NCBI RefSeq assembly: GCF_007362775.1
Contig: NZ_CP041692.1
Location: forward strand, 2,604,001-2,668,000
Direction of reading: 5' to 3'
Length of the DNA stretch: 64,000 nt
From: Microlunatus elymi
GTDB taxonomy: Bacteria > Actinomycetota > Actinomycetes > Propionibacteriales > Propionibacteriaceae
Of the stretch, positions 23,244 through 59,564 are shown in pieces. Within the stretch, counting starts at the first letter, position 1. Every line of letters starts with the position of its first letter. The notes beneath the pieces were generated by a model. That model was not told the origin of the DNA, did not search any database, and worked only from the letters and a program-made list of their open reading frames with translations. The position numbers were made by a program, and so were the translations under genes.

Positions 23244-23297
23244 CCGAGTTGTCAGCGTTAGAAGGCGCTGTAGCGCGTTCTGACGCTGACAAGTCGG
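23244..23297. repeat. 54-bp palindromic repeat, copy 1
   Basis: Two 26-base arms flank GT and match at 23 of 26 positions. The left arm begins CCGAGTTGTCAGCGTTAGAA and the right arm ends CGCTGACAAGTCGG. It starts directly after the SDR stop codon and lies four bases before the stop of the convergent oligopeptidase gene, where it could also serve as a terminator. Confidence 0.85.
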
Positions 23298-23301
23298 AGG
23301 G

Positions 23302-25470
23302 TTACGGCCGGACCTGGTCGATCAGCCAGGCGGATTCGAAGGCGATCTCGTGCCAGCGCTTGTAGCGGCCACTGGCGCCGCCGTGACCGGCCGACATCTC
23401 CGTCTTCAGCAGAATCGGGCGCTCCGGTCCGTTCGTCGCGACCCGGCGCAGCTCGGCGATCCACTTCGCCGGTTCGGTGAACAGCACCCGGGTGTCGTGC
23501 AAGCTGGTGGTGGCCAGGATCGCCGGATATTCCTTGTGGGCAAGGTTTTCGTACGGGCTGTACGACTTCATGTAGGCGTAGATGTCCGGGTCGTGCAGCG
23601 GGTCGCCCCACTCCTCCCACTCGGTCACCGTCAGCGGAAGTTCCGGCATCAGTATCGAGGTCAGCGGGTCCACGAACGGCACCGCGGCGTGGATCGCCCG
23701 AAAGGCGTCCGGGGCCAGGTTGGCCACCGCACCCATCAACAGGCCGCCGGCGCTGCCGCCCCGGGCCGCCAGCCGATCGGCGGAGGTGTAGCCGGCATCG
23801 ACGAGGTGCCGGGCCGCGGTCACGAAGTCGGTGAAGGTGTTGATCTTGGTCGTGGTCTTGCCCTGCTCGTACCAGTGCCGGCCCATCTCGCCGCCGCCCC
23901 GGATGTGGGCGATCGCGTACACGAAACCCCTGTCCAGGAAGGAAAGCACGGGGATGGAGAAGGACGGATCCATCGGGATCTCGTACGAGCCGTAGCCGTA
24001 GATCACCGCCGGCGCGGAGCCGTCCAGCGGGGTGGTCTTGGCGTACACGATCGACAGCGGGATCTTGGTGCCGTCCGCGGCCGTTGCCCACTCCCGGCGC
24101 TGCTCGTAGTCCTCCTTGCGGTAGGCCCCGCTGGTCGGATGATCAAGCACCGGAGTGATCTTGCGCAAGATCAACTTCCGTTCGCCGACCCGGTAGTCGT
24201 AGATCGAGTTCGGCGTGATCATCGAGGTGAAGGACAGCCGCAGATCGGGGGAGTCGTAGTCGCCGGCGCCCATCGGCGACACCGTGTAGAGCGGCTCGTC
24301 GAAGTCGATGTCCCAGCCGTCACCAAGATCACCATCGGCGTCCCGCGCGATCAGGTGGATGCCGGCCAATCCGTTACGGCGTAGGCCGATCACGATCTGA
24401 TCTTGGTAGGCGTCGACCTCCTGCAGCCGTACCCCGGGCTGATGTGGCAGCACCGTCTGCCACTGCTCGTGGGTCTGGGCGTCGAGCGGCGCCTGGGCCA
24501 GTGCGAAGTCCTCGGCGCCGTCGTTGTGCAAGATCAACAACCGGTCGCCGGCCGGCTCCACCTCATACTCCACACCCTGCCGGCGGGGTGCAACGATCCG
24601 CGGCTCCGACTCCGGTGCTGACGTCGGCAGCAACCGGACCTCACTGGTCAGCTTGCTGCCGGCGTCGATGATCACCCAGTTCTCGTCCCGACTGCTGCCG
24701 ACGCCGACCCAGAACCGTTCGTCCGGCTCGGCGAACACCTCCGGGTCGCTCGCCGGATCGGAACCGAGTCGATGCCGCAGCACCTGGAACGGGCGCCACG
24801 CCTCGTCGGCGCGGGTGTAGAACAGATGATCATCACCGGCCCAGGCCGCGCCGTAGGCGACGTTGTCGATCACGTCGTCCAGCCGCTTGCCGCTGGTCAG
24901 GTCCAGGAAGCGGAGCTGGAAACGTTCGTTGCCGGTCAGGTCCACCGAGTAGGCGAGCAGGTCGCCGGTCGGCGAGACGCTGAACGCGCCCAACGAGAAG
25001 AACTCGCTGTCGCCGGCCTCGGCGTTGGCGTCCAGCAGCACCTGTTCGCCGGTGATCTCGCCCTCGACGTCCGGCAACTCGTTGCGGTCGCCGGCCGCGG
25101 CGCGGCAGAAGATCGGATACTCCGAGCCCTCGACCGTGCGCTGGTAGTACCAGTACGCCGTCGACCGGCCGCCCCAGCGATGGGTCGCGTACGACGGCAC
25201 GCTCAGGTCGGTCTCCTGAGTACGGGACTTGATGTCGGTGAAGATCTCCTCCCGCAGCCCCTCCAGTTCGGCGGTGACGGCCTCGGTGTAGGCGTTCTCG
25301 GCCTCCAGATAGCCGACCACCGCCGGATCGTCCTTGTCCCGCAGCCACTCGTACGGATCGTCGAAGTCGTCTCCGTGATGGGAGCGGGTGAACGGCCGGC
25401 GCTCGGCCACCGGCGGTTCGGGGACTACCGGTCGTGGTCGGGACGTTGCCGGGGAATGATCATCGGTCAC
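23302..25470 (-). CDS. ptrB: Prolyl oligopeptidase family serine peptidase (oligopeptidase B-like)
   Basis: This 722-residue peptidase has an N-terminal beta-propeller (about 60-400; DDPYEWLRDKDDPAVVGYLE) and a C-terminal alpha/beta-hydrolase domain. The catalytic residues are visible: Ser in ARGGSAGGLLMG, Asp in TTSLHDTRV, His in SAGHGGASGRY. YGYGSYE and AHIRGGGEMGRHWYEQGK are typical of protease II/oligopeptidase B, which cleaves short peptides after basic residues. No signal peptide is seen, so it is cytoplasmic. The symbol is by similarity; specificity was not tested. Confidence 0.88.
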   Translation of the reverse strand: MTDDHSPATSRPRPVVPEPPVAERRPFTRSHHGDDFDDPYEWLRDKDDPAVVGYLEAENAYTEAVTAELEGLREEIFTDIKSRTQETDLSVPSYATHRWGGRSTAYWYYQRTVEGSEYPIFCRAAAGDRNELPDVEGEITGEQVLLDANAEAGDSEFFSLGAFSVSPTGDLLAYSVDLTGNERFQLRFLDLTSGKRLDDVIDNVAYGAAWAGDDHLFYTRADEAWRPFQVLRHRLGSDPASDPEVFAEPDERFWVGVGSSRDENWVIIDAGSKLTSEVRLLPTSAPESEPRIVAPRRQGVEYEVEPAGDRLLILHNDGAEDFALAQAPLDAQTHEQWQTVLPHQPGVRLQEVDAYQDQIVIGLRRNGLAGIHLIARDADGDLGDGWDIDFDEPLYTVSPMGAGDYDSPDLRLSFTSMITPNSIYDYRVGERKLILRKITPVLDHPTSGAYRKEDYEQRREWATAADGTKIPLSIVYAKTTPLDGSAPAVIYGYGSYEIPMDPSFSIPVLSFLDRGFVYAIAHIRGGGEMGRHWYEQGKTTTKINTFTDFVTAARHLVDAGYTSADRLAARGGSAGGLLMGAVANLAPDAFRAIHAAVPFVDPLTSILMPELPLTVTEWEEWGDPLHDPDIYAYMKSYSPYENLAHKEYPAILATTSLHDTRVLFTEPAKWIAELRRVATNGPERPILLKTEMSAGHGGASGRYKRWHEIAFESAWLIDQVRP

Positions 25471-25519
25471 CGCGCCAGGCTAACGGGGCGGCGCCGTTCC
25501 CGCGCGGCCATATCCGAGT

Positions 25520-25573
25520 CCGACTTGTCAGCGTTAGGAGGCGCTATGACGCTTCCTGATGCTGACACGTCGG
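25520..25573. repeat. 54-bp palindromic repeat, copy 2
   Basis: Arms match at 20 of 26 positions. The left arm begins CCGACTTGTCAGCGTTAGGA and the right ends TGCTGACACGTCGG. The stop codon (TAG, 25546-25544) and last nine codons of the adjacent thioesterase gene lie inside it. Confidence 0.8.
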
Positions 25574-26365
25574 GATCGGACGCAGGGTGAGGATCTGCTC
25601 GGACCGGCCGACCGGCCCGTGGGTGTCGTGCAGGACTGCGGAGGTGACGCCGATCCCGTTCGGGCCCCAGGTCGAGGTCGCGTCGATGCCGATCCAGCCG
25701 TTGCCGTCGTCGAGCCGCGGCGTACGGAAGTAATGCACCGTCAGATCGGTGTTGGGGAACATCCACTCGCGCGGGTTGCGGCGGGCGGCGATCCCGTTCG
25801 CCGAGTCGATCAGACCGGTCATCCGGACCAGATCGGAGCTCGGCTCGCCGGCCACGACGTCGATCGGCGTACGCAGCCAGGCGCGGCAATGACCCGGCAC
25901 CGAGGCCGGATCGACCCGGAAGTCCAGGCTGTCGATGAACCCACCCGACCACAGACCGGAGATGTCGTAGCCCGGCCAGGCGTCCGGTCCGGGCATCGGC
26001 TCGGGGGTGCCGCCGACGACCGCGGCGGTGTCCGCGGTGGCCAGCCGCCAGCCGGTGGCCCGGATCGCGGTCCGGCCGCCGATGATCATCCGCGCCCCGA
26101 TCATCTCGATCGTCCGGCCGGGCCGGACCACTTCGACCTCGACCGTGCTGTCCTGCGCGGCGATCACCCCGAGGATGTCGTAGCTGATCCGGCACAGCTG
26201 CAGGTCCTCGCGCGGAAACGCGGTCTCCAGTGCACGAGCCAGCAGTCCCGACGCCGGTCCCATGTGCTGCTCGGACTCCCGCCAGGCGCCCTGCGCGTGC
26301 CGGGTCGGCCGGAGCGTCTGTTCGTCGATGCGTTCGTAGTAGCCGGTGGGGTCGGGGGAGTTCAC
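25544..26365 (-). CDS. Acyl-CoA thioesterase-like hotdog protein
   Basis: This 273-residue protein has the tandem hotdog layout of the actinobacterial thioesterase family: QHMGPASGLLARALE near residue 35, ISYDILGVIA, VEVEVVRPGRTIEMIGARMI, then the second hotdog with WMFPNTDLTVHYFRTP and GIDATSTWGPNGIGVTSAVL. The likely substrate is an acyl-CoA. It is distinct from TesB at 10.6 kb. The C-terminal tail (PTCQHQEAS) is encoded by a 54-bp palindromic repeat, suggesting the original stop was displaced. Confidence 0.75.
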   Translation of the reverse strand: MNSPDPTGYYERIDEQTLRPTRHAQGAWRESEQHMGPASGLLARALETAFPREDLQLCRISYDILGVIAAQDSTVEVEVVRPGRTIEMIGARMIIGGRTAIRATGWRLATADTAAVVGGTPEPMPGPDAWPGYDISGLWSGGFIDSLDFRVDPASVPGHCRAWLRTPIDVVAGEPSSDLVRMTGLIDSANGIAARRNPREWMFPNTDLTVHYFRTPRLDDGNGWIGIDATSTWGPNGIGVTSAVLHDTHGPVGRSEQILTLRPIPTCQHQEAS

Positions 26366-26433
26366 GGCGGAGAGCCTAGAGCGTCGGGCTCGCGGTGCGA
26401 CCTCGGCCGATCGTCCACGTCAAGCTTCCCGGA

Positions 26434-26982
26434 TCAGAAGGCCGGCGGCTCATCACTGTTGATGGCTGCGACACCGGTCGGGCGGGCGTAGTAGGCCCAC
26501 GGAAACCACATCGTGCCGATCTTCTGCCAGCCTTCGGCTTCCAGCCGGTTCCGCGGGGCGAGCACGCTGACCCGACGGTGCTCCCACTGTTCGTCCGAGC
26601 AGACCAGATCGTGATAGAGCGTCCCGAAGGCCACCGAATGCCAGCCGAACCTGCCGGCCTCGTTGAGCCGGGAGATCTCGTCGAACGCGTTCACCGGTGT
26701 CATCCGCCAGACCTGCCCGTCCGGCGTGGGTGCCGCCCGGCCGAAACGCTGCTGGGCAGCCTGCCGCGACACGTCCAGGACGCTGCCGATCTGTTCCCAG
26801 CTCAGACCAGCCGTACGGGCGGAGTCGACGGCACTGCGCAGCGTCGAATCGGCTTCGCTGCTGATGCTGGCAGCGACGGCGATGAGCCTGCCGTACGCGG
26901 CCGCGTCGGTGTTCAGCTCACCGCTGAGATCGGGATCGATGTCGGCGATATTCCTCGAGTTGTCAGCGTCACGAGGCGCCAT
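26434..26982 (-). CDS. HTH protein of unknown function
   Basis: This 182-residue protein (if started at ATG 26982) contains a region-4-like helix-turn-helix, DSARTAGLSWEQIGSVLDVS, then RQAAQQRFG, common in small actinobacterial HTH proteins. A C-terminal part rich in Trp follows (WRMTPVNAFDEI; EGWQKIGTMWFPWAYY). The start codon lies at the centre of a 54-bp palindromic repeat; further upstream starts cross the whole repeat. A downstream start near the conserved helix is possible. It is divergent from the ligase gene at 27032. No function is assigned. Confidence 0.6.
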   Translation of the reverse strand: MAPRDADNSRNIADIDPDLSGELNTDAAAYGRLIAVAASISSEADSTLRSAVDSARTAGLSWEQIGSVLDVSRQAAQQRFGRAAPTPDGQVWRMTPVNAFDEISRLNEAGRFGWHSVAFGTLYHDLVCSDEQWEHRRVSVLAPRNRLEAEGWQKIGTMWFPWAYYARPTGVAAINSDEPPAF

Positions 26983-27008
26983 AGCGCGTTCTTGCGCTGA
27001 CAAGTCGG
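26955..27008. repeat. 54-bp palindromic repeat, copy 3
   Basis: The left arm begins TCGAGTTGTCAGCGTCACGA and the right ends GCGCTGACAAGTCGG around a central AT. It occupies the gap between divergent genes and contains the best start codon (ATG at 26982) of the minus-strand HTH gene. Confidence 0.8.
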
Positions 27009-27031
27009 GGGTGTGCGGCAAGGATGTGCGG

Positions 27032-28501
27032 ATGGGAGACGAAGTCGCCGCGCAGGTGTTCACCCGGGCCGACCGGACCCGCTATCGGGAGAAGACCGAG
27101 GCGGATCTGGGAGTGCTGGCTCGGATGTTGTCGGAGCAGGGCTTCGATACCGAACGACCGATGAGCGGCCTGGAGATCGAGCTGAACCTGATCGACGACC
27201 GGTTCGAGCCGGCGATGCGCAACGCCGAGGCGCTGTCGGTGATCGCCGATCCGCTGTTCCAGACCGAGCTCGGCCGGTTCAACCTGGAGATCAACCTGCC
27301 GCCGCGCCGGCTGGCCGGCGACGGGCTCGATTCGTTCGCCAGGTCGGTACGCGCCGCGTTGGACGGTGCCGATCAGAAGATCAGTGGGGCCCGGCTGGTG
27401 ATGATCGGGATCCTGCCCACGCTGCGGCCCGAACACGCCGACAGCGAGCACCTGTCGGCCAACCCGCGCTACGCCCTGCTGAACGAGCAGGTGCTGCGGG
27501 CCCGGGGCGAGGACATCAAGATCAGCATCGACGGTGTCGAACAGCTCCGGCTGGTCACCGATTCGGTGATGCCGGAGGCGGCCTGCACCTCGACCCAGGT
27601 GCACCTGCAGGTCGAGCCGGAATCCTTTGCGGCCTACTGGAACGCCGCTCAGGCGATTGCCGGCGTACAGCTGGCGGTGGGTGCGAACTCTCCGTTCCTG
27701 TTCGGGCGGCGGCTGGTCGACGAGTCCCGGGTGCCGCTGTTCGAGCAGGCGACCGACACCCGCACGGACGACCTGAAGGCCCAGGGTGTACGCCCGCGGG
27801 TCTGGTTCGGCGAACGCTGGATCGACTCCGTCTACGACCTGTTCGAGGAGAACAACCGCTACTTCGCGCCCCTGCTGCCGGTGGTCGGCGACGAGGACCC
27901 GGCCGCGGTGCTGGACGCCGGCGGCGTACCCGAACTTGCCGAGTTGCAACTGCACAACGGCACCATCTACCGCTGGAACCGACCGGTCTACGACGCCACC
28001 GGCGATCGGCCGCACTTGCGGGTGGAGAACCGGGTGCTGCCGGCCGGCCCGACGGTGATCGACACCATGGCCAATGTTGCTTTCTTTGCAGGCCTGGTCC
28101 GCTCGCTCGCCGAGGCGGACCAGCCGGTGTGGGCGGACCTGGACTACGAGGTCGCGGCCGCGAACTTCCAGGCCGGCGTCCGCGACGGCATCCGTGCCCG
28201 GCTGTTCTGGCCGGGCAGCGGCGAACTGCCGGCCACCGAGCTGGTGCTGCGCAAGCTGCTGCCGCTGGCCGCCGACGGGCTGCGTCGCTGGGAGGTCACC
28301 GCAGACACCGCCGATCGGCTGCTCGACGTGATCGAGCGGAGGTGCCTCGGTGCGGTCAACGGGGCGACCTGGCAGACTGCGGCGGTAGCAGCACGCGAAC
28401 GGGCAGGTGCGGATCGCGACTCGGCCTTGCACGGCATGCTCGGCGACTATCGCGAGCTGATGGCAACGGGCGAGCCGGTGCACACATGGAGGATGAGATG
28501 A
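27032..28501 (+). CDS. Glutamate-cysteine ligase family protein
   Basis: This 489-residue protein has the ligase core: MSGLEIELNLIDDRFEPAMR with the metal-binding Glu pair, GRFNLEINLPPRRLAG, STQVHLQVEPESFAAYWNAA, and HLRVENRVLPAGPTVID. These are the marks of the GCS/carboxylate-amine ligase superfamily (PF04107-like). It would join glutamate to an amine donor; whether the product is gamma-glutamylcysteine is unproven. ATG 27032 follows AAGGAT by six bases, the same context as the DUF5998 gene at 62400. Its stop overlaps the next gene's ATG (ATGA). Confidence 0.8.
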   Translation: MGDEVAAQVFTRADRTRYREKTEADLGVLARMLSEQGFDTERPMSGLEIELNLIDDRFEPAMRNAEALSVIADPLFQTELGRFNLEINLPPRRLAGDGLDSFARSVRAALDGADQKISGARLVMIGILPTLRPEHADSEHLSANPRYALLNEQVLRARGEDIKISIDGVEQLRLVTDSVMPEAACTSTQVHLQVEPESFAAYWNAAQAIAGVQLAVGANSPFLFGRRLVDESRVPLFEQATDTRTDDLKAQGVRPRVWFGERWIDSVYDLFEENNRYFAPLLPVVGDEDPAAVLDAGGVPELAELQLHNGTIYRWNRPVYDATGDRPHLRVENRVLPAGPTVIDTMANVAFFAGLVRSLAEADQPVWADLDYEVAAANFQAGVRDGIRARLFWPGSGELPATELVLRKLLPLAADGLRRWEVTADTADRLLDVIERRCLGAVNGATWQTAAVAARERAGADRDSALHGMLGDYRELMATGEPVHTWRMR

Positions 28502-28899
28502 CGGGCACTGATCAGAGCGCTGATTCGACGGGCACCGAGTCGACCGTGGTGGTCGGCTATTCCGCCAAACCGGAGGGCCGGGCCGCGCTGGCCCGCGGCA
28601 TCGCGATGGCACGCCTCAGCGGCGCCAAGATCGTCATCGTGCACACCGCGCCGGACGACGACGCGCCGGACGTACGCGCCCAACTGGACGCATCCGGACT
28701 GGCGTACGACATCCATCAGGCGCCCGACGTGCTGGACCCCGCCGAAGAGTTGATCAAGGTTTCTGAAGCTTCTGCCGATGCCATGATCGTCATCGGGCTG
28801 CGCCGTCGCTCACCGGTGGGAAAGTTGTTGCTGGGCAGCAATGCGCAGCGGATCCTGCTCGACGCGTCCTGCCCCGTACTGGCCGTCAAAGCGGAGTAG
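28498..28899 (+). CDS. Universal stress protein
   Basis: This 133-residue UspA-fold protein reads STVVVGYSAKPEGRAALARG, IVIVHTAPDDDAPDV, and C-terminal GLRRRSPVGKLLLGSNAQRI. The second glycine of the usual G-2X-G-9X-G(S/T) ATP motif is Arg, so nucleotide binding is doubtful, although LLLGSNAQ is retained. ATG 28498 overlaps the ligase stop; an earlier in-frame ATG (28486) is possible. It is co-transcribed with the glutamate-cysteine ligase-like gene. Confidence 0.85.
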   Translation: MTGTDQSADSTGTESTVVVGYSAKPEGRAALARGIAMARLSGAKIVIVHTAPDDDAPDVRAQLDASGLAYDIHQAPDVLDPAEELIKVSEASADAMIVIGLRRRSPVGKLLLGSNAQRILLDASCPVLAVKAE

Positions 28900-29090
28900 G
28901 TTGGCTTGAGCGGTAGCCGCCCGGCGGCCGCCGCGACATCCGGGAGACCCCTGGATGACAACCGATTTGGGTCGGCGTGCCAGAATACTTTCCGGAGCAG
29001 GGGGTTGACTTTTTCCGGTCTGACCCTGCCCAAAAACAATCACCCGGCCCGACCCCGATGCATTCCGTACCGGTAAGCGAGAGGTTCTTT

Positions 29091-30503
29091 GTGACACCCA
29101 CCTCCAATGCCCGACCGGCCGACGGACGCGTTTCCGCTGCGACCTCCGCAGCCAGCAAGATCGACGCGCCCGTCAAGAAGGCCCCCGCCAAGAAGACGTC
29201 GAAGTCCACGACGAGGAAGTCACCCCTGCAGGCCGTCGAGGATCCCACCGTCGCCGAGAACGGCGAGGCGGCGACCGACGGCGCCAGGCAGGCGGCCAAG
29301 AAGACCGCAGCGAAGAAGGCGCCCGGCAGCAAGGCGTCGGCGAAGACCAGCCGCGCCAAGGGTGGCCGCAAGTCCAAGACCGAGACCGACATCTCCGTCG
29401 AGGTCGACGGCTCCGACGTCGTACTGACGGTCAGCGGCAAGAAGCGCAGCCTCGACGACGTCGACGAGTCCAAGTTCGACCAGGCCGAGGAAGGCAAGCT
29501 GGAGAAGGAACTGGTCGAGGAGAACCAGGGCTTCAGCCTGTCCGACGCCGACGACGCGGATGAGCCGGAGCAGCAGGTGCTCGCCGCCGGCGCCACCGCC
29601 GACCCGGTCAAGGACTACCTGAAGCAGATCGGCAAGGTTGCGCTGCTGAATGCCGAGCAGGAGGTCGAGCTGGCCAAGCGGATCGAGGCCGGCCTGTTCG
29701 CCGACGAGCAGCTGGGCGACAGCAAGGCCAAGATCAAGGAGGTCGAGCGGGTCGACTACGAGTGGATCGCCGAGGACGGCCGGCGGGCCAAGAATCACCT
29801 GCTGGAGGCCAACCTCCGGCTGGTCGTGAGCCTGGCCAAGCGGTTCACCGGCCGCGGGATGATGTTCCTGGACCTCATCCAAGAGGGCAACATGGGCCTG
29901 ATCCGTGCGGTCGAGAAGTTCGACTACACCAAGGGCTACAAGTTCTCCACCTACGCCACCTGGTGGATCCGGCAGGCGATCACCCGGGCGATGGCCGACC
30001 AGGCCCGGACCATCCGGATCCCGGTGCACATGGTCGAGGTGATCAACAAGCTGGCCCGGGTGCAGCGGCAGATGCTGCAGGATCTCGGCCGCGAGCCCAC
30101 TCCGGAGGAGCTCGCCAAGGAGCTCGACATGACCCCGGAGAAGGTCGTCGAGGTGCAGAAGTACGGCCGTGAGCCGATCTCCCTGCACACCCCGCTGGGC
30201 GAGGACGGCGACTCCGAGTTCGGTGACCTGATCGAGGACTCCGAGGCCGTCGTACCGGCCGATGCGGTCGGCTTCACCCTGCTGCAGGAACAGCTGCACG
30301 ACGTGCTGGACACCCTCAGCGAGCGCGAGGCCGGCGTGGTGTCGATGCGCTTCGGCCTGACCGACGGCCAGCCGAAGACGCTGGACGAGATCGGCAAGGT
30401 GTATGGCGTCACCCGGGAGCGGATCCGGCAGATCGAGTCCAAGACGATGTCGAAGCTGCGCCACCCCTCGAGGTCCCAGGTCCTGCGGGATTACCTGGAC
30501 TGA
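29091..30503 (+). CDS. sigA: Principal RNA polymerase sigma factor
   Basis: This 470-residue sigma-70 has a Lys/Ala-rich N-terminal tail ([16 protein letters not shown]) typical of actinobacterial HrdB/SigA, then region 1.2 ([20 protein letters not shown]), region 2 ([40 protein letters not shown]), region 3 ([20 protein letters not shown]) and region 4.2 ([20 protein letters not shown]). GTG 29091 is preferred because GAGAGG lies eight bases upstream; ATG 29058 would add 11 residues. It recognises housekeeping promoters. Confidence 0.93.
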
Positions 30504-30512
30504 CCACCTCGT

Positions 30513-30552
30513 ACAACGGCCCCTTCTCCCAGGTGGGAGGAGGGGCCGTTGT
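30513..30552 (+). terminator. sigA terminator
   Basis: Eighteen-base arms (ACAACGGCCCCTTCTCCC and GGGAGGAGGGGCCGTTGT, one mismatch) enclose four bases (AGGT), starting ten bases after the stop. Confidence 0.8.
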
Positions 30553-30667
30553 CGTGCCCCGCAGAGGTCGAGGACATGACTGTTGGAGAACGCTGCAGAA
30601 GTCGAGATTCCGTACGAAGTCGAGGACCGCTCAGGTACGCGGCCTCGATCTGTGGGCCGAGAACGAA

Positions 30668-30704
30668 ACGACCGCCGCGCCCGTGGTCGGGGCGCGGCGG
30701 TCGT
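30668..30704. terminator. Second hairpin between sigA and the convergent zinc-ribbon gene
   Basis: Arms ACGACCGCCGCGCCC and GGGCGCGGCGGTCGT pair perfectly over 15 bp around a 7-base loop, 57 bases after the stop of the minus-strand gene. Confidence 0.75.
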
Positions 30705-30760
30705 GATGTCGTGGTGGGCCGTACTGGGAACTGTCGGTTCGCTTCCGGCTAGCTCACCGG

Positions 30761-30958
30761 TCAGCCGATGTTGGCGGTCTCGTCCTGGATCTTCAGGGCG
30801 ACCTGCTTGAGCTTGTCGGCGTGCTCCTTGCCGTGATGGGCGCAGAAAAGAAGCTGCGAACCGCCCGGCATGGTCACGCGTACGTAGGCCTGCGCGCCGC
30901 AACGATCGCAGCGATCAGCCGCAGTCAGGGCTGCATCGTCGATGACTGAAGTGCTCAC
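30761..30958 (-). CDS. Small zinc-ribbon protein (DUF7455-like)
   Basis: This 65-residue protein reads MSTSVIDDAALTAADRCDRC, followed by GAQAYVRVTMPGGSQLLFCAHHGKEH. The paired CDRC and CAHH motifs would hold one zinc. Small proteins of this type sit beside the hrdB/sigA gene and a topoisomerase gene in Streptomyces, and the order here is the same. GTG 30958 is preceded by AGAGAGG. Function is unknown; a role near transcription is inferred from context only. Confidence 0.8.
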   Translation of the reverse strand: MSTSVIDDAALTAADRCDRCGAQAYVRVTMPGGSQLLFCAHHGKEHADKLKQVALKIQDETANIG

Positions 30959-45679: not shown

Positions 45680-45681
45680 TA

Positions 45682-50141: not shown

Positions 50142-50256
50142 AAATCCCGAGGACTGAGGGCGGTCGGCGCCCCTCCGAAACCTGACGATCCCTAGCGCCA
50201 CCCTCGACCCGACCGTGATCATCGAACCGGCCAGCCAGAGCAAGGATGCGGGATGA

Positions 50257-50320: not shown

Positions 50321-50404
50321 GGAATCGCCCCGTTCGGTAGCTGCTGGTGCCGTTGGACGGTCCCTCCCGAGGTGGCCGTGGAGAAATCTGCCGGCCGGAT
50401 GGAC

Positions 50405-52858
50405 CTACGCCGGGAAGCGGCGGGTCGCCGCGGCAACGATCGGTTGAGCGGCAGGGGTGCCGGAGCCGTCGCGGCGGCCGGTGGCTTCTGGCAGGTCGAT
50501 CGGGGCGCCGCTGTCGGCGGCGGCGATTGCGGGGGTCGGTCCGGCCCAGGCGAACAGCAGAGTGCTCTCGCCCTTCAGGAACCGGTGGCACCGCACGCCG
50601 CCGGTCGCCCGGCCCTTGCCCGGGTATTCGGCGTACGGGGTGACCTTGATCGTGCCCGCGTCGGTTCCCGGTAGCGCGTCGCCACTGCCGGCCACGGTGA
50701 CCACGATCGCCTCGCCATGCGGAACGACACCGAAGAACGCGACGCTCTGGCCGGCACCGAGCTTGATGCCGGCGATGCCGCCGCCGGACCTGCCCTGCGG
50801 ACGTACCGCTGAAGCAGGGAAGTGCAGCAGTTGGGCATCGTCGGAGATGAACGTCAGCTCGACGTTCTCATCGGTCAACTCCACCGCCCCGACCACCTCG
50901 TCGCCGTCGTCCAGCCGGATGATCTCCCAGACGTCCTTGTTCAGCAACTCCGGATTCGCGCGCTTGACGATGCCGCGCCTGGTACCCAGAGCGATCGTGC
51001 CGGCATCCTCGCCGAGGCGACTCAGCGCGAGGATCCGTTCACCAGGCTCGGCCGCCGAGATCAACTCGGTGACGTGCGCTCCACCCTGCAGGTTGGGCGC
51101 GTTGGCGGTGACCGGGACGGTGGGCAGATCGAGCGCGTTGCCGCGGATCAGCCTACCGGCGTTGGTGATCAGGCCGTAGTCGCCGCGGGCGGTGGTGCGG
51201 ATCGCCGAGATGATCACGTCGTGGTTGCTACGACCGCCGTCGGTGGGCAGCGGATCGGCGTTCTCGGTGCGGGCCAGCAGGCCGGCGGAGGAGAGCAGCA
51301 CCCAACACGGATCGTCCGGAACCTCAAGCGGGGTAGCAGTTGCGGTCGCGGTGACACCACTGGACGACAGCAGAATGGTCCGCCGCGGGGTCCCGAACTG
51401 CTTGGCCACCTCGGCCAACTCGTTGCCGACCAGCAGCCGAAGTTGATCATCGTTCTCGATGATCTCGTTCAGCTCGGCGATGGTGTTCTGCAGCTCCTCG
51501 CGTTCGGCTTCCAATTCGATCTTGGAATACTTGGTCAACCGGCGCAGCTGCATGTCCAGGATGTAGTTGGCTTGCGTCTCGGTCAGCTCGAACACCTCGA
51601 TCAACCGGGTCCGCGCAGCCGCCGCGTCGTCCGATCCGCGGATGATCGCGATCACGTCGTCGATGTCCACGATCGCGATCAACAGACCCTCGACCAGATG
51701 CAGCCGCTCGACCGCCTTGTCCCGGTCATAGGTCGTACGACGCAGCACGACGTCCAGCCGATGCCGCAGGTAGACCTCCAGCATTTCCTTCAGCGGAAGG
51801 GTTCTGGGCTGTTCGTCGACCAGGGCGACCGCGTTGATCGCGAACGAGTCCTCCAGCTTGGTCTGCCGGTAGAGCTGCTCCAGCAGGGCGTCCGGGTTGA
51901 AGCCGTTCTTCACCTCGATCACCAGCCGGGTGCCGTTGGCCAGGTCGGTGAGGTCCTTCAGGTCGGCGATACCCTGCAGTTTCTTCGAGCCGACCAGGGC
52001 CTTCACCTGCTCGATGATCTTCTCCGGGCCGACGTTGTACGGCAGTTCGGTGATCACGATGCCCTTGCGGCGTGGGCTGACCTGCTCGATCCGCGCGGTC
52101 GCCCGGATCTTGAACGAACCCTTACCCGTCTCGTACGCGTCCCGGATGCCGTCCAGCCCGATGATCTTTCCGCCGGTGGGCAGATCCGGCCCGGGGATGA
52201 AGCGCATCAGCGTGTCCAGGGTGGCGTCGGGATGCTTCAGCAGATGGCGCAGCGCCTGCACCACCTCGACCAGGTTGTGCGGCGCGCAGTTGGTCGCCAT
52301 CCCGACCGCGATCCCGTTGGTGCCGTTGACCAGCAGGTTGGGATAGGCAGCGGGCAGGACGATCGGCTCGGTCTCCTTGCCGTCGTAGTTGGCCTTGAAG
52401 TCGACGGTGTCCTTGTCCAGCCCGTCGGTCATCGCCAACGCTGCCGGGGCCATCCGGCACTCGGTGTAACGCATCGCGGCCGGGCCGGCGTCCAGCGAAC
52501 CGAAGTTGCCGTGGCCGTCGACCATCGGCAGCCGCATCGTCCACGGCTGAGCCATCCGCACCAGTGCGTCGTAGATCGCCCCGTCGCCGTGCGGGTGCAG
52601 CACACCCATCACCTGGCCGACCACCCGGGCACACTTCACGTGCGGCCGATTCGGCAGCACCCCCATGTCCCGCATGGAGTAGAGAATCCGCCGCTGCACC
52701 GGCTTCAGCCCGTCCCGGGCGTCGGGCAGCGCCCGGGCATAGATCACCGAGTACGCGTACTCCAGGAAGCTCGTCTCCATCTCCGACGAGACGTCCATGT
52801 CGACGATCCGCTCGACGAAATCGTCCGCCGGCGGCGTCTTGGTCCTGCGTGCAGCCAT
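50405..52858 (-). CDS. parC: Type IIA topoisomerase subunit A, ParC-like
   Basis: This 817-residue DNA breakage-reunion subunit has [39 protein letters not shown], and catalytic Tyr131 in [10 protein letters not shown], then the tower and coiled-coil, with a C-terminal beta-pinwheel (about 500-790). No clear GyrA box (QRRGGKG) is present, the nearest being a degenerate RPQGRSGGG, which supports topoisomerase IV-like decatenase activity with ParE. The position of the quinolone-sensitive Ser in E. coli GyrA is Gly93. ATG 52858. Confidence 0.9.
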
Positions 52859-52918
52859 CTGTTGCCAACTCCCTCAGCTCAGTGCGAGGCGATTGTCCCT
52901 CACCAAGGTACGAATGCC

Positions 52919-52961
52919 GAGCGGGGCTCGCCGGGCACAGCCGGCTCGGATCCTCCCGCTC
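52919..52961 (-). terminator. Possible terminator after the CHAD gene
   Basis: GAGCGGG (52919-52925) pairs with CCCGCTC (52955-52961) at the end of the CHAD gene. The inner part is GC-rich and partly paired. Confidence 0.4.
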
Positions 52962-53853
52962 AGGAGGTGGGGGCCCGTTTGGCGATCTTCTTGCGCAGGT
53001 GGCGCCGGTGCTGAAGCTCCTGGTCGTAGAGGATGCCGAAGGTGAAGCCGTTGCGGCCGGGGATGCCGCCGAGATCGCGGAGCAGGATCGAGGCCAGTCG
53101 GCTGTCCTGGTAGTCGCCGAGTTGATCTTGAAGCCGCTTGCGGCGGGCGATCGTACGATCCGCAGCCGAACCGAACACGGATGCGCTCGCCTCGACCGCG
53201 TACCGGTGTCGCTTCGCCGCCTTGCGAGCGGAGTGAATCAACGCGTCGGTCTCCGGATCGTCGGCGTTGATCGCGTCGGCGGCATGCCGCAGCCGCCGAT
53301 CCAGCCGATACCCGGCTCGCTTGACGTACTTCTTGATCTTGGTCGCGGGCTTGTCGGCACGCGCGGTCCAGGCCGGCTGATCCTTCCACTTCTCCAACTG
53401 CTGCAGCAGCTCCGCGTAGCGTTCGTCATGCAGCGCATCCCGCAACGCGGCCAATGCGATCCGTCGCCGGAACAGCAACTGATCGGCCAGTTCCTGGGCT
53501 GCCTGATGCAGCACAAGATCATCTTCCATCCGGTCCACTGCAGCGGTCAACCGTTCGCCCAGCACGTCCAGGTCACGTACGGCGCCCAGCCGCAGACCGA
53601 ACCAGCGCAGCTCGTCGGACAAGCTTTCTGCCTGCTCTGCAAGGAAGAAGTCGTCGAAGACGCGCAAGGTGCTGCGTAGCCGCCGGCAGCCCACCCGGGC
53701 CTGATGGATCCGTTCCGCGGGCAACTCGCGGGCCCGATCGGCGTCGAAGGCGCGCTGCAGTTCGGCGCTGATCGTCAGCACGGTGACGCACTGGTCCGCG
53801 AGATAGGGACCGAGCACGTCCGCAGCTGTCGTCGTCTGCTGGTGCTTGCTCAC
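52960..53853 (-). CDS. CHAD domain protein
   Basis: This 297-residue helical protein contains IHQARVGCRRLRSTLRVFDD, WFGLRLGAVRDLDVLGERL, and IHSARKAAKRHRYAVEASAS, the conserved His/Arg/Lys helices of CHAD domains. These bind polyphosphate through their basic face. It has no CYTH partner domain. GTG 53853 lies ten bases after the stop of the acyl-CoA synthetase gene and follows GAGGA, so the two are probably co-transcribed. Some actinomycetes accumulate much polyphosphate, which makes this plausible but not shown. Confidence 0.85.
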   Translation of the reverse strand: MSKHQQTTTAADVLGPYLADQCVTVLTISAELQRAFDADRARELPAERIHQARVGCRRLRSTLRVFDDFFLAEQAESLSDELRWFGLRLGAVRDLDVLGERLTAAVDRMEDDLVLHQAAQELADQLLFRRRIALAALRDALHDERYAELLQQLEKWKDQPAWTARADKPATKIKKYVKRAGYRLDRRLRHAADAINADDPETDALIHSARKAAKRHRYAVEASASVFGSAADRTIARRKRLQDQLGDYQDSRLASILLRDLGGIPGRNGFTFGILYDQELQHRRHLRKKIAKRAPTS

Positions 53854-53863
53854 CGGATCGTCC

Positions 53864-55594
53864 TCAGTCGAAATCGCCGGCGTAGAACTCGAACTCGGCC
53901 CGGCCGACATGGGTTTCCTCCGCGTGCCGCAACTCGACTCGGCGGATCTTGCCACTGATCGTTTTCGGCAACTCGCCGAATTCGAGGATCCGGATCCGCT
54001 TGTAGGGGGCGAGATGTTCGCGGGTGTAGGCGAAGATCGACTTCGCCGTCTCCGCGTCGGGCTGATGGCCGCCGGCCAAGATCACGAACGCCTTCGGCAC
54101 CGCGAGCCGGACCGGATCGGGATGCGGGATCACTGCTGCCTCGGCCACCGCCGGATGTTCGATCAACACTGACTCCAACTCGAACGGGCTGATCCGATAG
54201 TCGCTGGCCTTGAACACGTCGTCGGAGCGGCCGACGTAGGTCAGGTAGCCGTCATCGTCGATGCTGACCACATCGCCGGTGTGATAGACGTCGCCGGCGA
54301 AGGCGTGCTCGTTCTTCCGATCGTCGAACACGTCGGCCCGATCCTTGTAGCCGGTCATCAGCGCCAGCGGCCGCGGATCCAGCTCCAAGCACAACTCGCC
54401 CTCGTCCGTGCGGTTCTCGCCGGTGGCCGGATCGACCAGCCGGACCCGGTACCCCGGCAGCGGCCGGCCCATCGAACCGGGCTTCAAGCCAACCCCCGGC
54501 GGATTCCCTACCTGGGCGGAGGTCTCGGTCTGCCCGTACCCGTCCCGGATGGTCAGTCCCCACGCCTTCTTGACCTGCTCGATCACCTCCGGGTTGAGCG
54601 GCTCACCGGCCGAGAACGCTTCCCTGATTGAGGTCTTGGCCGATCCGAGGTCGGCCTGGATCAGCATCCGCCACACCGTCGGCGGGGCGCAGAAGGTGCT
54701 CACCCCGGTGCTCTCCAGCACCCGCAGCAGACCGTCGGCGGCGAACCGCTGATAGTTGTAGACCAAGATCGTCGACCCCGCCAGCCACGGAGCGAAGAAG
54801 CTGCTCCAGGCATGTTTGGCCCAGCCGGGCGAGCTGATGTTGAGGTGAACGTCGCCGGGTCGCAACCCCATCCAGTACATCGTGCTCAGATGCCCGATCG
54901 GGTACGAGGTCTGGGTGTGCTCGACCAGCTTCGGCAACGCGGTGGTGCCGGAGGTGAAGTACAGCAGCATCGGGTCGTCGGCCTTGCTGACACCGGGGAA
55001 GTGCCGGTCGGCGTCGGGATCGACTACGACCTCGGCGTAATCGTGCCAGCCGTCGGGCACCGGGCTGCCGGAACCGGAACCGTCCACCGCCACCCGGCCG
55101 TGCTCGACCTGCAACTCGGCGAATTTGGCGTGGTCGGCGACGTCGGCAATCAGCAACCTGGCCTCGCCACGGTCGACGCGGTCGGCCAGGTCCTTGGCCG
55201 CCAACTGCGGTGTGGCCGGGATGATCACCGCGCCGATCCGGATCGCGGCCAGCATGATCTCCCACAGCGGCACGCAATTTCCCAACACCAGCAGGATCCG
55301 ATCGCCACGGCGTACCCCCAGACCGGCCAGCCACTGCGCGGCCGCCACCGAACGATCCCGCAACTCGGCGAAGCTGAGCTTGGCCTCCCGGCCAACGCCG
55401 CCCGCCTCGTCGGCGTCGATCACCCACAGCGCGGTCTGCTCGGGGCTCTCCTCGGCCAGCCCGTCGAACCAGTCGGCGGCGAAGTTGAACAGCTGCAGCT
55501 GGGGCCAACTGAAACCGGCGTACGCAGTCTGGTAGTCGCTGCGATGCAGCAACAGGAAGTCTCGTGCTGCGCGGACCTGCGGATGAGTCGGCAT
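53864..55594 (-). CDS. AMP-binding acyl-CoA synthetase
   Basis: This 576-residue adenylate-forming ligase has P-loop YFTSGTTALPKLVEHT, GYGQTETSAQVG, the hinge YHTGDVVSIDDDGYLTYVGR with Asp/Arg, and C-terminal Lys in LPKTISGKIRRVELR. It resembles medium-chain acyl-CoA synthetases: SPGWAKHAWSSFFAPW is typical of that group. It activates a carboxylic acid to its CoA thioester with ATP. ATG 55594. It lies upstream of the CHAD gene. Confidence 0.9.
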   Translation of the reverse strand: MPTHPQVRAARDFLLLHRSDYQTAYAGFSWPQLQLFNFAADWFDGLAEESPEQTALWVIDADEAGGVGREAKLSFAELRDRSVAAAQWLAGLGVRRGDRILLVLGNCVPLWEIMLAAIRIGAVIIPATPQLAAKDLADRVDRGEARLLIADVADHAKFAELQVEHGRVAVDGSGSGSPVPDGWHDYAEVVVDPDADRHFPGVSKADDPMLLYFTSGTTALPKLVEHTQTSYPIGHLSTMYWMGLRPGDVHLNISSPGWAKHAWSSFFAPWLAGSTILVYNYQRFAADGLLRVLESTGVSTFCAPPTVWRMLIQADLGSAKTSIREAFSAGEPLNPEVIEQVKKAWGLTIRDGYGQTETSAQVGNPPGVGLKPGSMGRPLPGYRVRLVDPATGENRTDEGELCLELDPRPLALMTGYKDRADVFDDRKNEHAFAGDVYHTGDVVSIDDDGYLTYVGRSDDVFKASDYRISPFELESVLIEHPAVAEAAVIPHPDPVRLAVPKAFVILAGGHQPDAETAKSIFAYTREHLAPYKRIRILEFGELPKTISGKIRRVELRHAEETHVGRAEFEFYAGDFD

Positions 55595-55633
55595 GGCCGC
55601 ACGCTATCGCAACGGCACCGGCCTCGTACCGGG

Positions 55634-57157
55634 TCAGGAGTCGTCGATGTCGACCCAGTCCAAGGTGCGTTGAACGGCCTTCTGCCAGCCTGCGTACCCG
55701 GCACTGCGCTGTTCGTCGGAGGTCTGCGGGTTCCACCGCCTGCTCTCGTGCCAGTTCTGCCGCAACTCCTCGGGATCGCTCCAGAAACCGACCGCCAGGC
55801 CGGCCGCATAGGCGGCGCCCAGCGCCGTGGTCTCGGCGATCTGCGGCTTGCTCACCTCGACCCCGAGCACGTCGGCCTGGATCTGCATGCACAGCTCGTT
55901 GGCGGTGATCCCGCCGTCCACCTTGAGCACGTCGATCTTGCTGCCGGAGTCCTTCTCCATCGCGTCGGCCACATCCTTGCTCTGATAGCAGATCGCCTCC
56001 AGCGCGGCTCGGGCCAGATGTCCGCCGGTGTTGTAGCGCGACATCCCGACGATCACGCCGCGGGCGTCGGATCGCCAGTACGGCGCGAACAGTCCGGAGA
56101 ACGCCGGTACGAAGTACAAGCCGCCGTTGTCGGTCACCGTGCGGGCCAGCACCTCGCTGTCGTCGGCGTCGGTGATGATCTTGAGCTGGTCGCGCAGCCA
56201 CTGGATCGCCGAGCCGGTGACCGCGATCGAACCCTCCAACGCGAACACCGGATCCTGATCACCGAACTGGTAGCAAACCGTGGTCAGCAAGCCGTTCTCG
56301 GAGCGGACCAGCTCGGTGCCGGTGTTCATCAACAGGAAGTTTCCGGTCCCGTAGGTGTTCTTCGCCTCGCCGGCGGACAGACAGACCTGACCGACCATGG
56401 CGGCTTGTTGATCACCGAGCGTGCCGGCCAGCGACACCTCGCCCTGCAGGGGTCCGCGCTTGAGGGTCTTGCCGTACAGGTTGGGATCGGAAGAGGGTCG
56501 GATCTCGGGCAGCATCTGCCGGGGGATGTCGAAGAAGCCGAGCAGCTCGTCGTCCCAGTCCAGCGTCTCCAGATTCATCAGCATGGTGCGGCCGGCGTTG
56601 GTGACGTCGGTGATGTGTACGCCGCCGTCGGTGCCGCCGGTCAGATTCCACAGCAGCCAGCAGTCGGTGGTGCCGAAGAGCGCGTCGCCCTTCTCGGCGG
56701 CCTCCCGGACGCCGGAGACGTTCTCGAAGATCCACTGGATCTTGCCCGCGGAGAAGTAGGTCGCCGGCGGGATGCCGGCCTTGCGGCGGATCACATCACC
56801 TCGCCCGTCGCGTTCCAGCGCGGCGGCGATCTTGTCGGTCCGGGTGTCCTGCCAGACGATCGCGTTGTAGTAGGGCCGGCCGGTGCGCTTGTTCCAGATC
56901 ACCGTGGTCTCGCGCTGGTTGGTGATCCCGAGCGCGGCCAGATCGCCGGCTTCCAGGTCGAGCTTGTTCATCGCGGTCTGGATCACCGAGGAGGTGCGGT
57001 CCAGGATCTCCACCGGGTTGTGCTCCACCCAGCCGGGCTTGGGCATGATCTGGGAGTGTTCCAGCTGGTGCTTGCCGATCTCCGCGCCGTCATGATCGAA
57101 AACCATGAATCGGCTGCTGGTGGTGCCCTGGTCGATCGCCGCGACGTAGTCGGCCAT
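55634..57157 (-). CDS. glpK: Glycerol kinase
   Basis: This 507-residue FGGY kinase phosphorylates glycerol to sn-glycerol 3-phosphate. It begins [20 protein letters not shown] and includes [20 protein letters not shown], the signature [11 protein letters not shown], and [17 protein letters not shown] 57157 follows AAGGGAGACGAGG; an upstream ATG would add an unconserved 18-residue tail. No glpF or glpD is adjacent. Confidence 0.95.
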
Positions 57158-57274
57158 GCCTCGTCTCCCTTGATCAGATCCGCCGATTGGTTCGGTCTCT
57201 GTGATCGGCACGCCGATCCCCGGATGATCATGCCAGCACCGACCGGCCGGGCGATGCTGTGCGGCGGAGACAGC

Positions 57275-57348
57275 ACAAGAATCCTGCTCCAGTGGCGTCC
57301 TGACCCGCAGATCCGGCCGGCTGGACCCGACTGGCGCAGGATCCTTGT
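57275..57348. repeat. Long hairpin repeat flanking the DUF559 gene, copy 1
   Basis: The left arm ACAAGAATCCTGCTCCAGT and right arm ACTGGCGCAGGATCCTTGT pair with two mismatches around a 36-base loop. It lies 31 bases after the DUF559 stop. It shares its arm sequence with copy 2 on the other side of the gene. Confidence 0.8.
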
Positions 57349-57379
57349 AATCCTGGCCGCTCCGAGTCGACCACGCGGA

Positions 57380-58249
57380 TCAACTGCGCAGGGCGAGTGC
57401 GCGGCGGATGCATTCGATCAACCAGTCGGGGTCGTCGATCAGGTGCGCCCAGGTGAAGTTCAGAACCAGGTATCCGGCGAGCTCGAGTTCGTTGCGCCGA
57501 CGGCGATCGTTGTTGAACACGTCCCGATCACTGTGGAAGGCGTAACTGTCGAACTCGACAATTACTCGTTGCCTGCCGAACAGCAGGTCGGCGCGATAAC
57601 GCCGGCCGGACCGGAGTCGGATCTGTCGGTTGGCCGTCCAACCCGTGATCCCGCGATTGCGCAGCAGCCGATGCAGGCGACGCTCGGCGGCCGACCACGG
57701 GTCGTCGCGCGAATCGCGAAGCACCCTCATGCGCTGCTGGTTGCCAGGTCGACCCGGGGTGGCTCGGAACGCGGCCCACAGCTCATCCAAGCTGATTCCC
57801 GCCCGGAGGGCAGCGTCGATCGCGTCCGCATCCTCGGCGGCCAGGTCGACGGCTGTCATGGCCGGCGAAGTGACCGCCACGGTCGCGATCCGCATGGCGA
57901 GTTCCGGCGGGATCTCACGGCGTTCGGTCCGGTATCGACCGCGACACGCCGCGGGACGACGTGGGGCTGCGAAGGTCAGCCGGGACACCGGCGCCTTCGG
58001 CCAGAAGGTAAGTGCCGCCGCGGCCCAGCCGGTGAGCACAGCGTCCGGTCCCAGCCACAGGGACCCGGCCAGGACGGCAAGCTCCAGGTCGTCCTCGGCG
58101 CTGGGGACCGTCAGGATTCCCGGCAGCGGCGAAGCGAGGTGCCCGCGCCGGCGGAGGTAGTCGAGCCGATAGCGCAGCTCTGGATGATCGGCTCGGCGAA
58201 TCGCGCCGCCGGCAGCTTTCAGAAGTTGGTCAATGTCTTGTGTCCACAC
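57380..58249 (-). CDS. DUF559 endonuclease-like protein with N-terminal winged-helix region
   Basis: This 289-residue protein has a C-terminal DUF559/Vsr-like nuclease fold: RADLLFGRQRVIVEFDSYAF, then HSDRDVFNNDRRRRNELELA, with the acidic and Gln/Asn-containing strands of PD-(D/E)XK nucleases, and VLNFTWAHLIDDPDW. The N-terminal part (DIDQLLKAAGGAIRRADHPEL) resembles the AbiEi-type winged helix often joined to DUF559. Biological role is unknown. GTG 58249 starts VWTQDIDQLL; the open frame further upstream crosses non-coding repeat DNA. The gene is bracketed by two related hairpin repeats. Confidence 0.75.
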   Translation of the reverse strand: MWTQDIDQLLKAAGGAIRRADHPELRYRLDYLRRRGHLASPLPGILTVPSAEDDLELAVLAGSLWLGPDAVLTGWAAAALTFWPKAPVSRLTFAAPRRPAACRGRYRTERREIPPELAMRIATVAVTSPAMTAVDLAAEDADAIDAALRAGISLDELWAAFRATPGRPGNQQRMRVLRDSRDDPWSAAERRLHRLLRNRGITGWTANRQIRLRSGRRYRADLLFGRQRVIVEFDSYAFHSDRDVFNNDRRRRNELELAGYLVLNFTWAHLIDDPDWLIECIRRALALRS

Positions 58250-58359
58250 AGAGAGTTTGTGACTTTTGGTGCCGAGGTGATCAGGGGCTGTGGATACGGG
58301 CTGCGAGGTGGGTCGCCAGGGTTGTGGACAACCGATCGGCACCGCCGGTGTGGGACGAG

Positions 58360-58441
58360 GATGACAAGAGTGCTGCACCAGTGATGCTGTCCTGCTCGGT
58401 TCCGGGCAGCTGAGCGGCACTGGTGCAGGATTCTTGTCATC
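58360..58441. repeat. Long hairpin repeat flanking the DUF559 gene, copy 2
   Basis: Arms of 24 bases match at 22 positions: left GATGACAAGAGTGCTGCACC plus AGTG, right CACTGGTGCAGGATTCTTGT plus CATC, with a 34-base loop. It lies 111 bp upstream of the DUF559 start and 37 bp before the divergent FGE gene, so a terminator role for DUF559 is excluded here. Confidence 0.85.
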
Positions 58442-58469
58442 GCCAGGTCCGGTGAAACGACGGCACGCA

Positions 58470-58475
58470 TATACC
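58470..58475 (+). promoter_or_regulatory. -10 hexamer TATACC of the FGE-like gene
   Basis: TATACC ends eight bases before GTG 58484 and two before GTG 58478. The second GTG would fit a leaderless start. Confidence 0.35.
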
Positions 58476-58477
58476 GT

Positions 58478-59497
58478 GTGGGCGTGGACCAAGATCTGCA
58501 TGTTGAGCACGCATCCTGCTGCGCTCCCAGCGGGCGAGGCATGGCCATCAGTGCCGCGCGTCCGGCCGACGGCGCCGCGGCGCCTTCTTCAGCGGCGACA
58601 TCGGACGCGTACTCGAGATCCCTCGAGCCGGACCTGGGGGAGCGGATCTCCTTGCCCGGCGGGGATTTCCTGATGGGGACCGAGGACGCCGAGGGGTTTC
58701 CCGACGACGCCGAGGGGCCGATCCGCCGGGTCCACGTGGACGGCTTCCGCATCGGCGCGACTGCGGTAACCAACGATCAGTTCGCTCGGTTCATCGCGGC
58801 CACCGGTCACCGGACCGAGGCGCAGAGCTTCGGCTGGAGCTTCGTGTTCGCCGGTTTCCTGTCGGCGGCGGTCCGCAAGATCAGCCCGCGACCGGAGGTG
58901 ACGCCGTGGTGGTGCGCGGTCGAGGGCGCCAGCTGGGATCATCCCGAAGGCCCCGGCTCCGACCTCGCCGGCCGCGGCGACCATCCCGTTGTCCATGTCT
59001 CCTGGAACGACGCGGTCGCCTACTGCACCTGGGCCGGCGGCCGGCTGCCCACCGAGGCCGAGTGGGAGTACGCCGCCCGCGGCGGCCTGGAGCAGGCGCG
59101 CTACCCGTGGGGCGACGACCTCACCCCGGACGGGCGGCATCTGTGCAACATCTGGCAGGGACGCTTCCCGATCCACAACAACGCCGACGACGGCTATCGC
59201 GGCACCGCATCGGTCCGCAGCTTCCCGGCCAACGGCTACGGCCTGTACGAGGTGGTCGGCAACGTCTGGGAGTGGACCGCCGACCACTGGGGCACCGACC
59301 ATGATCAAGAACCGGCCCCGGACCGGCCGATCGTGAACCCGACCGGTCCCGATCACGGACCACAGCGGGTGATGCGCGGCGGTTCGTACCTCTGCCACAA
59401 GTCCTACTGCAACCGCTACCGGGTCGCCGCCCGCAGCCGCAACGAGCCCAACAGCGGCGGCGGCAACAACGGCTTCCGCTGCGTCTGGCCGTCCTGA
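58478..59497 (+). CDS. Formylglycine-generating enzyme
   Basis: This protein of about 337-339 residues has the FGE-sulfatase (SUMF1) fold: LPGGDFLMGTEDAEGFPDD, AGGRLPTEAEWEYAARGG, GLYEVVGNVWEWTADHWG, and GGSYLCHKSYCNRYRVAARS carrying the copper/active-site cysteines Cys306 and Cys311 (C-x4-C as in Streptomyces FGE). It would oxidise Cys to formylglycine in sulfatase-like targets at CxPxR sites. The N-terminus holds CCAPSGR (14-20), close to that target motif. No sulfatase gene is in the window. GTG 58478 or GTG 58484. Confidence 0.9.
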   Translation: MGVDQDLHVEHASCCAPSGRGMAISAARPADGAAAPSSAATSDAYSRSLEPDLGERISLPGGDFLMGTEDAEGFPDDAEGPIRRVHVDGFRIGATAVTNDQFARFIAATGHRTEAQSFGWSFVFAGFLSAAVRKISPRPEVTPWWCAVEGASWDHPEGPGSDLAGRGDHPVVHVSWNDAVAYCTWAGGRLPTEAEWEYAARGGLEQARYPWGDDLTPDGRHLCNIWQGRFPIHNNADDGYRGTASVRSFPANGYGLYEVVGNVWEWTADHWGTDHDQEPAPDRPIVNPTGPDHGPQRVMRGGSYLCHKSYCNRYRVAARSRNEPNSGGGNNGFRCVWPS

Positions 59498-59510
59498 TCA
59501 CCCGACCTCA

Positions 59511-59564
59511 CCGACTTGTCAGCAGGAGAGGGCGCCATAGCGCGTCCTGCCGCTGACAACTCGG
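59511..59564. repeat. 54-bp palindromic repeat, copy 4
   Basis: The left arm begins CCGACTTGTCAGCAGGAGAG and the right ends CCGCTGACAACTCGG around AT. It lies 13 bp after the FGE stop and 76 bp before the next gene, both on the plus strand, where it could be a terminator. Confidence 0.85.

Follow-up and report, generated by a model that had tools for sequence, protein, structure and literature searches.

A family of 54-bp palindromes with REP-like placement in Microlunatus elymi and related Propionibacteriaceae

Current knowledge of repetitive extragenic palindromes (REPs) rests mainly on proteobacterial families and on the REP-associated tyrosine transposases (RAYTs). Among other short repeats, miniature inverted-repeat transposable elements (MITEs) such as ERIC, Correia and RUP are intergenic and bounded by inverted ends, and integron attC sites, located after stop codons, have conserved ends around a variable self-complementary middle. 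In the parts of Di Nocera et al. (2013, PMC3733652) used here, REPs are 20–40 bp, fall into the GTAG and CGTC super-families, and are described as high-copy extragenic palindromes mainly in convergent or co-directional gaps; several families may share a genome, and in two species most convergent REPs lie ≤20 bp from both gene ends. DNA uptake sequences are described, in the portion of PMC5217627 used here, as pairs of a conserved short word, in inverted orientation, at the 3' ends of genes. The subject of this paper is a family of 54-bp near-palindromes in Microlunatus elymi, whose genome (here G000) is a single contig of 5,121,194 bp (NZ_CP041692.1). Four copies had been noticed in a sequence-only reading of positions 2604001–2668000, a 64,000-nucleotide stretch referred to below as the window.

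The family is best explained as a dispersed DNA palindrome of REP-like kind, with a fixed length of 54 bp, that is moved or overwritten as a unit, a reading to which a probability of roughly 0.55 is assigned. All four near-palindromes are present in the window at their reported length and positions, with a mean column identity of 88%, and the pattern TTGTCAGCN{15,30}GCTGACAA gives 3 window matches against 0.00 expected from 100 shuffles. In the whole genome, TTGTCAGCN{15,35}GCTGACAA occurs at 40 exact places (0 in the reversed control). A covariance model of the four copies, as proposed when they were first seen, scored no more than 150 candidates and gives 147 rows that represent 78 distinct places. 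A search for both 12-bp ends, set at constant spacing and allowing ≤3 mismatches in the two, finds 98 copies in the genome, against 0 in the reversed control. That the window might hold the only copies is thereby excluded. The sequence-only reading could put no name to the family, and this still stands: the whole window has 0 Rfam matches at gathering score, the sole match at E ≤ 1 within 23200–27100 is RF03137 (22 bits, 42.2 needed), and no description of this family appears in open-access titles and abstracts among the matches listed.

Placement is biased toward the 3' ends of genes. Gene calls come from our own unvalidated codon-usage script. The 91 copies in the DNA fetched from M. elymi comprise 35 in convergent gaps, 45 in co-directional gaps, 3 in divergent gaps and 8 inside predicted genes. 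Intergenic length in the fetched DNA predicts 11.9, 41.1 and 30.0 for the 83 extragenic copies (p 9e-16). The distance from stop codon to element is 0–6 nt in 68 of 115 cases. Convergent gaps that hold the element have, after subtraction of 54, a median of 7 nt, against 25 nt in gaps without it (35 each, p 0.0003), and in 15 of the 45 co-directional cases the downstream gene has its predicted start 15–19 nt after the element. The same trend is weaker, with looser distances, in other genomes, where 167 copies (161 distinct, one from M. elymi itself) divide into 45 convergent, 65 co-directional, 21 divergent, 23 in genes and 13 undecided. The window copies do lie at gene boundaries, as first described (Table 1). 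The copy said to separate divergent genes is indeed in such a gap, but it runs into the start of the minus-strand gene, and divergent settings are rare in this genome.

Table 1. Copies of the 54-bp palindrome in the window and their predicted neighbours (window coordinates; gene strands as + or -).
Feature	Position	Strand	Setting	Neighbouring predicted genes
54-bp palindrome, stem subfamily A	23244..23297	.	convergent-gene gap	0 nt past stop of 22332-23243 +; 4 nt from stop of 23302-25410 -
54-bp palindrome, subfamily A	25520..25573	.	gap of two minus-strand genes	contains stop of 25544-26365 -
54-bp palindrome, subfamily A	26955..27008	.	divergent-gene gap	overlaps start of 26434-26982 - by 28 nt
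54-bp palindrome, subfamily A	59511..59564	.	13 nt past stop of 58541-59497 +	70 nt ahead of start of 59635-62343 +

The unit has conserved ends, a conserved centre and exchangeable stems. Its length is 54 in 90 of 97 M. elymi cases when 44 to 69 is allowed at ≤3 mismatches. Among the 91 copies used for the anatomy, 90 have ≤3 mismatches, and in these the inverted ends CCGASTTGTCAG and CTGACAASTCGG hardly vary, with positions 7–12 paired in 88 to 90 of 90; positions 1–4 (CCGA) pair with 51–54 (TCGG) in 74–99%. Both arms have C or G at position 5 and a Y/R-type degeneracy at positions 24–26. The centre, about SYYATRRS, approximates GCTATAGC and is constrained in sequence. Most copies were found through the model or the ends, which biases the set toward conserved ends, and a search with the centre alone serves as a check: 12 of 12 exact GCGCTATAGCGC sites lie inside copies already found, as do 36 of 38 sites with ≤1 mismatch (24 sites in the reversed control). 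One exact-centre copy, at 4415875, has a decayed left end. By nearest assignment the M. elymi copies form three stem subfamilies, A (57), B (18) and C (16). In A, positions 7–13 are changed in 0–1% of arms and positions 14–16 and 18–21 in 25–50%; in B and C single stem positions change in 0 to 47%. No two copies are identical, the best match being 42–52 of 54. Stems also differ by species: AACTGAG is found in 32 of 65 distinct copies of Microlunatus speluncae, and four related Propionibacteriaceae metagenome bins, one of them labelled Propionicimonas, have an AATCT stem in 27 of their 47 copies. One 113-bp copy (G000:C1:247977-248089, L080) has a different palindrome in place of the centre, apparently a nested insertion, whose word pair occurs at that site only in the M. 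elymi DNA examined.

The family is patchily distributed. In a genus sample, 11 of 20 genomes carry the 54-bp pattern in 1 to 284 copies each and 9 have none, two of the latter giving 1–2 weak matches to the covariance model; the pattern is blind to other lengths, and genome G006 scores 0 with a 51-bp form present. A family sample has copies in 21 of 197 genomes, 11 within the genus and 10 outside, of which 8 belong to genus g9. In a phylum sample at ≤2 mismatches M. elymi alone is positive (1 of 396). A scan of species genomes gave at least 120 stretches from M. speluncae, a Propionicimonas bin and other Propionibacteriaceae bins, with a few records of Nocardioidaceae, Geodermatophilaceae, Frankiaceae, Cellulomonas and Isoptericola; the taxon labels of metagenome bins are possibly wrong. 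These stretches were selected for an exact copy, and comparisons among them show retention but yield no rate. No gene convincingly recurs beside copies among 459 neighbour proteins. Both neighbours are common to 5 cross-genome copy pairs, 4 of them orthologues among related bins; the fifth joins a Nocardioidaceae bin and Isoptericola (protein identity 32% and 48%). Direct arrays of element plus spacer were observed in M. speluncae, at L181 4250-4624 with a period of 107 bp and at L196 311-572 with a period of 104 bp, probably from unequal recombination.

Orthologous gaps show how the element behaves between species. The gap between rpsQ and rplN (ribosomal proteins S17 and L14, by Pfam matches) holds the 54-bp element in G000 and G005 and the 51-bp form in G006. 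It lacks the element in G011, where the flanks are 85% and 93% identical to those of G000, and the remaining relatives read there (21 loci) have other sequence, including G004 with its 284 copies. In the other-species stretches 18 gap comparisons were read. Eight gaps, each compared in two or three species, hold an element in every species. Ten orthologous pairs from these have a stem likeness of 12–24 of 30 (mean 18.5), against 18.4 ± 3.2 for 811 random cross-bin pairs. Two of the ten, at 24 and 23, may be inherited. Another is ambiguous, in that the L117 gap has a second element 24/30 like that of L213 where the element scored is 19/30. The gap L216/L230, outside the ten, scores 8 of 30, and in L157 and L132 the element is present in one genome and missing from the other. 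Best paralogue stem scores are 22–29, biased upward as the best of several. M. speluncae and one bin also have copies 53–54 of 54 alike with unrelated flanks. As a separate observation at the ribosomal locus, several relatives (e.g., L266, L270, L271, L275 and L276) have before rplN a conserved stretch of the type GTTCC...GAACC.G.GAGACAACCAGGAGA; it was not seen in G000, G006, G011 or G012, looks like a structured leader and, in the four loci searched, matches no Rfam family at gathering score.

Compensated changes in the two arms had been taken to suggest a maintained stem. In M. elymi this does not hold. The four window copies have 2 cells changed on both sides against 2.8 in shuffles, with a covariation score of 0.135 against 0.145, and the three subfamilies agree, with Watson-Crick cells at or below the expectation for independent arms (A 534 against 549.8, B 183 against 191.5, C 175 against 175.8). 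Compensation as proof of a maintained stem is rejected for this genome. It is seen among relatives: for copies with AATCT in both arms, the four Propionibacteriaceae bins have 204 paired cells against 130.3 expected, reached in 0 of 500 shuffles, a figure that ignores relatedness among stems; taken bin by bin, 0, 0, 4 and 12 of 500 shuffles reach the observed value. The M. speluncae copies covary as a whole (713 against 547.3) but not within their main subfamily (357 against 372.9), and the 6 copies of a Nocardioidaceae bin show no covariation (163 of 500 shuffles).

Had the element been moved by a REP-associated transposase, as the earlier suggestion of a REP- or MITE-type element invited one to check, the Y1_Tnp domain (PF01797) would be sought in its hosts. 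It is absent from all 17 genomes tested of the 20 in the genus, that of M. elymi included (15 of 15 in one set and 7 of 7 in a second, together 17), and control genomes were positive as expected (5 of 14). A RAYT is therefore rejected as the mover in the Microlunatus genomes tested. Genus g9 differs, since 5 of 5 element-bearing genomes, the only ones covered there, carry 1–2 RAYT-like Y1_Tnp genes (L284-L292). None of these 9 loci has a 54-bp element in the 7,150–8,333 bases fetched, and a single one of the nine g9 genes, compared with the RAYT model NF047646, matches it below the cut-off (66.6 bits, cut-off 80).

The likeness to REPs lies in copy number and placement as these are given in the parts of PMC3733652 used: the 54-bp family is dispersed, palindromic, extragenic, high-copy and found mostly at gene 3' ends. 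The REP side of the earlier classification is borne out to that extent, and by the patchy occurrence. As judged from the same parts of that source, the unit is longer than the 20–40 bp of REPs and has no unpaired GTAG/CGTC tag, its positions 1–4 and 51–54 being paired. The genus genomes tested lack a RAYT and the RAYT-like genes of g9 are not flanked by elements. Nor are there close alternating pairs like those of bacterial interspersed mosaic elements: no close pairs occur among the 91 M. elymi copies, and the closest starts, among copies listed, are 316 bp apart. Conserved ends and centre with exchangeable stems are a further difference. The family is filed as REP-like and not as REP because it departs from the size, tag, RAYT in the genus and close pairs that define REPs.

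If the element is mobile in this way, some protein would recognise the ends and centre of the unit. The enzyme at work would leave no target duplication and, in this genus, would not be a RAYT; it would place copies of the whole 54-bp unit in fresh gaps or replace existing copies with them. A hairpin or cruciform is the probable intermediate, and this would also explain why new stems are near-perfect palindromes. Insertions would survive mainly behind stop codons, where they disturb little, and once there the unit may act as a two-way 3'-end hairpin.

Several observations weigh against this account of a REP-like mobile unit. The empty G011 site could reflect loss, since unrelated sequence occupies the gap in most of the other 21 rpsQ-rplN loci. 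The copies 53–54 of 54 alike with unrelated flanks could arise by chance from limited variation within subfamilies. An enzyme, a parent element and a recent insertion polymorphism were not found in the DNA covered, and the RAYT-like genes of g9 go with the element in every genome covered. Near-invariant ends and the filling of the same gap in several species fit a functional site maintained in place equally well.

A bolder form of the REP-like reading, held tentatively and with more doubt than confidence, is that recognition falls on the ends and centre, with the stem serving as self-complementary filler of free sequence. A hairpin-copying machine other than a RAYT, so far undescribed in Actinomycetota, would rewrite the stem at gene-end addresses that stay fixed. 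The address would then persist across species as the stem is exchanged. Integron attC sites resemble the family in their conserved ends, variable self-complementary middle and location after stop codons.

A functional two-way 3'-end element under selection, with the hairpin in mRNA as terminator, barrier to convergent read-through or protection from exonuclease, is an unlikely reading. The short stop-to-element distances and the nearly filled convergent gaps speak for it, as do ends far more conserved than stems, gaps filled alike in related species, and RNA folds of -30 to -42 kcal/mol with z of -5.8 to -9.4 in 6 of 6 cases. The upstream flank is C-rich (C 0.40, G 0.20–0.22; other stops have 0.34/0.34 before and 0.36/0.30 after). 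On the downstream side the resemblance to an intrinsic terminator fails, for the 15 nt after the 45 co-directional copies are G-rich (G 0.43, T 0.16) and have no T-run; no longer stem or complementarity was found in the flanks. An RNA role is also not favoured by the wobble test, since sense-strand G-U and A-C mismatches show no clear bias (41:32 in the 45 co-directional M. elymi copies, 25:22 in 64 distinct co-directional copies elsewhere). Arm pairing in M. elymi is not above chance, one copy sits between the genes for ribosomal proteins S17 and L14, and nine of the 20 genus genomes have no copy by the pattern, though two of these give 1–2 weak matches to the covariance model.

Quite improbable is a dyad-symmetric site bound by a protein that organises the chromosome or blocks transcription, with paralogues of it for the stem subfamilies. 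Such a site is in keeping with the two-fold symmetry, the constant length and the conservation of ends and centre, and with the S- and Y/R-type degeneracy at positions 5 and 24–26. The lack of a preferred orientation also fits: in subfamily A many copies have a polarity, owing to a systematic difference between the arms at positions 19 and 21, and its direction relative to the gene is random (10:10 for the co-directional A copies that possess one). The element is missing from many close relatives, however, and a protein reading double-stranded DNA would need no symmetric stems of many sequences, such as those of the related bins.

Very improbable is descent as a MITE from an insertion sequence of the DDE type that has CCGASTTGTCAG ends; the inverted ends, the dispersal and the element-free G011 site would speak for it. 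Here the earlier suggestion is not supported: no target duplication (k = 2 to 9) exceeds shuffles in 91 M. elymi copies. In 120 stretches, each selected because it contains a pair, none of 289 half-motifs lacks a partner at 54 bp, and in M. elymi 2 of 23 half-sites read look solitary, among 100 of 148 half-site rows listed. No insertion sequence with these ends was found in the 120 stretches or among the M. elymi half-sites listed. The family shares with MITEs a short length, inverted ends and intergenic location, but differs in being almost wholly palindromic. That the units are DNA-uptake signal pairs, as in Haemophilus, is hardly credible. The likeness to what the portion of PMC5217627 used describes is that a short word is conserved and stands in inverted pairs at the 3' ends of genes; against it are a word seldom alone where examined, a fixed spacing and many different stems.

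Other inverted repeats were seen in the same DNA. A second repeated hairpin, with core CCGCCGCACCCGAAAT, occurs at two places in the fetched DNA (G000:C1:560070-560113 and 2225941-2226002). In the window, outside the 54-bp family, an 82-bp imperfect palindrome at 58360–58441 has 40-base arms that are 80% complementary and lies between divergent predicted genes, as does an operator-like 49-bp inverted repeat at 19823–19871. A near-perfect 19-base inverted repeat at 30513–30552, 10 nt past a predicted gene end, is probably an ordinary terminator hairpin.

A large family in Actinomycetota that is placed like REPs, and that in this genus has no RAYT, tag or target duplication, would show that lodging behind stop codons is independent of RAYTs. 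With the same address filled by unlike stems, and 0 to 284 copies per genome, both the spread of palindromes and their lodging at stop codons become testable.

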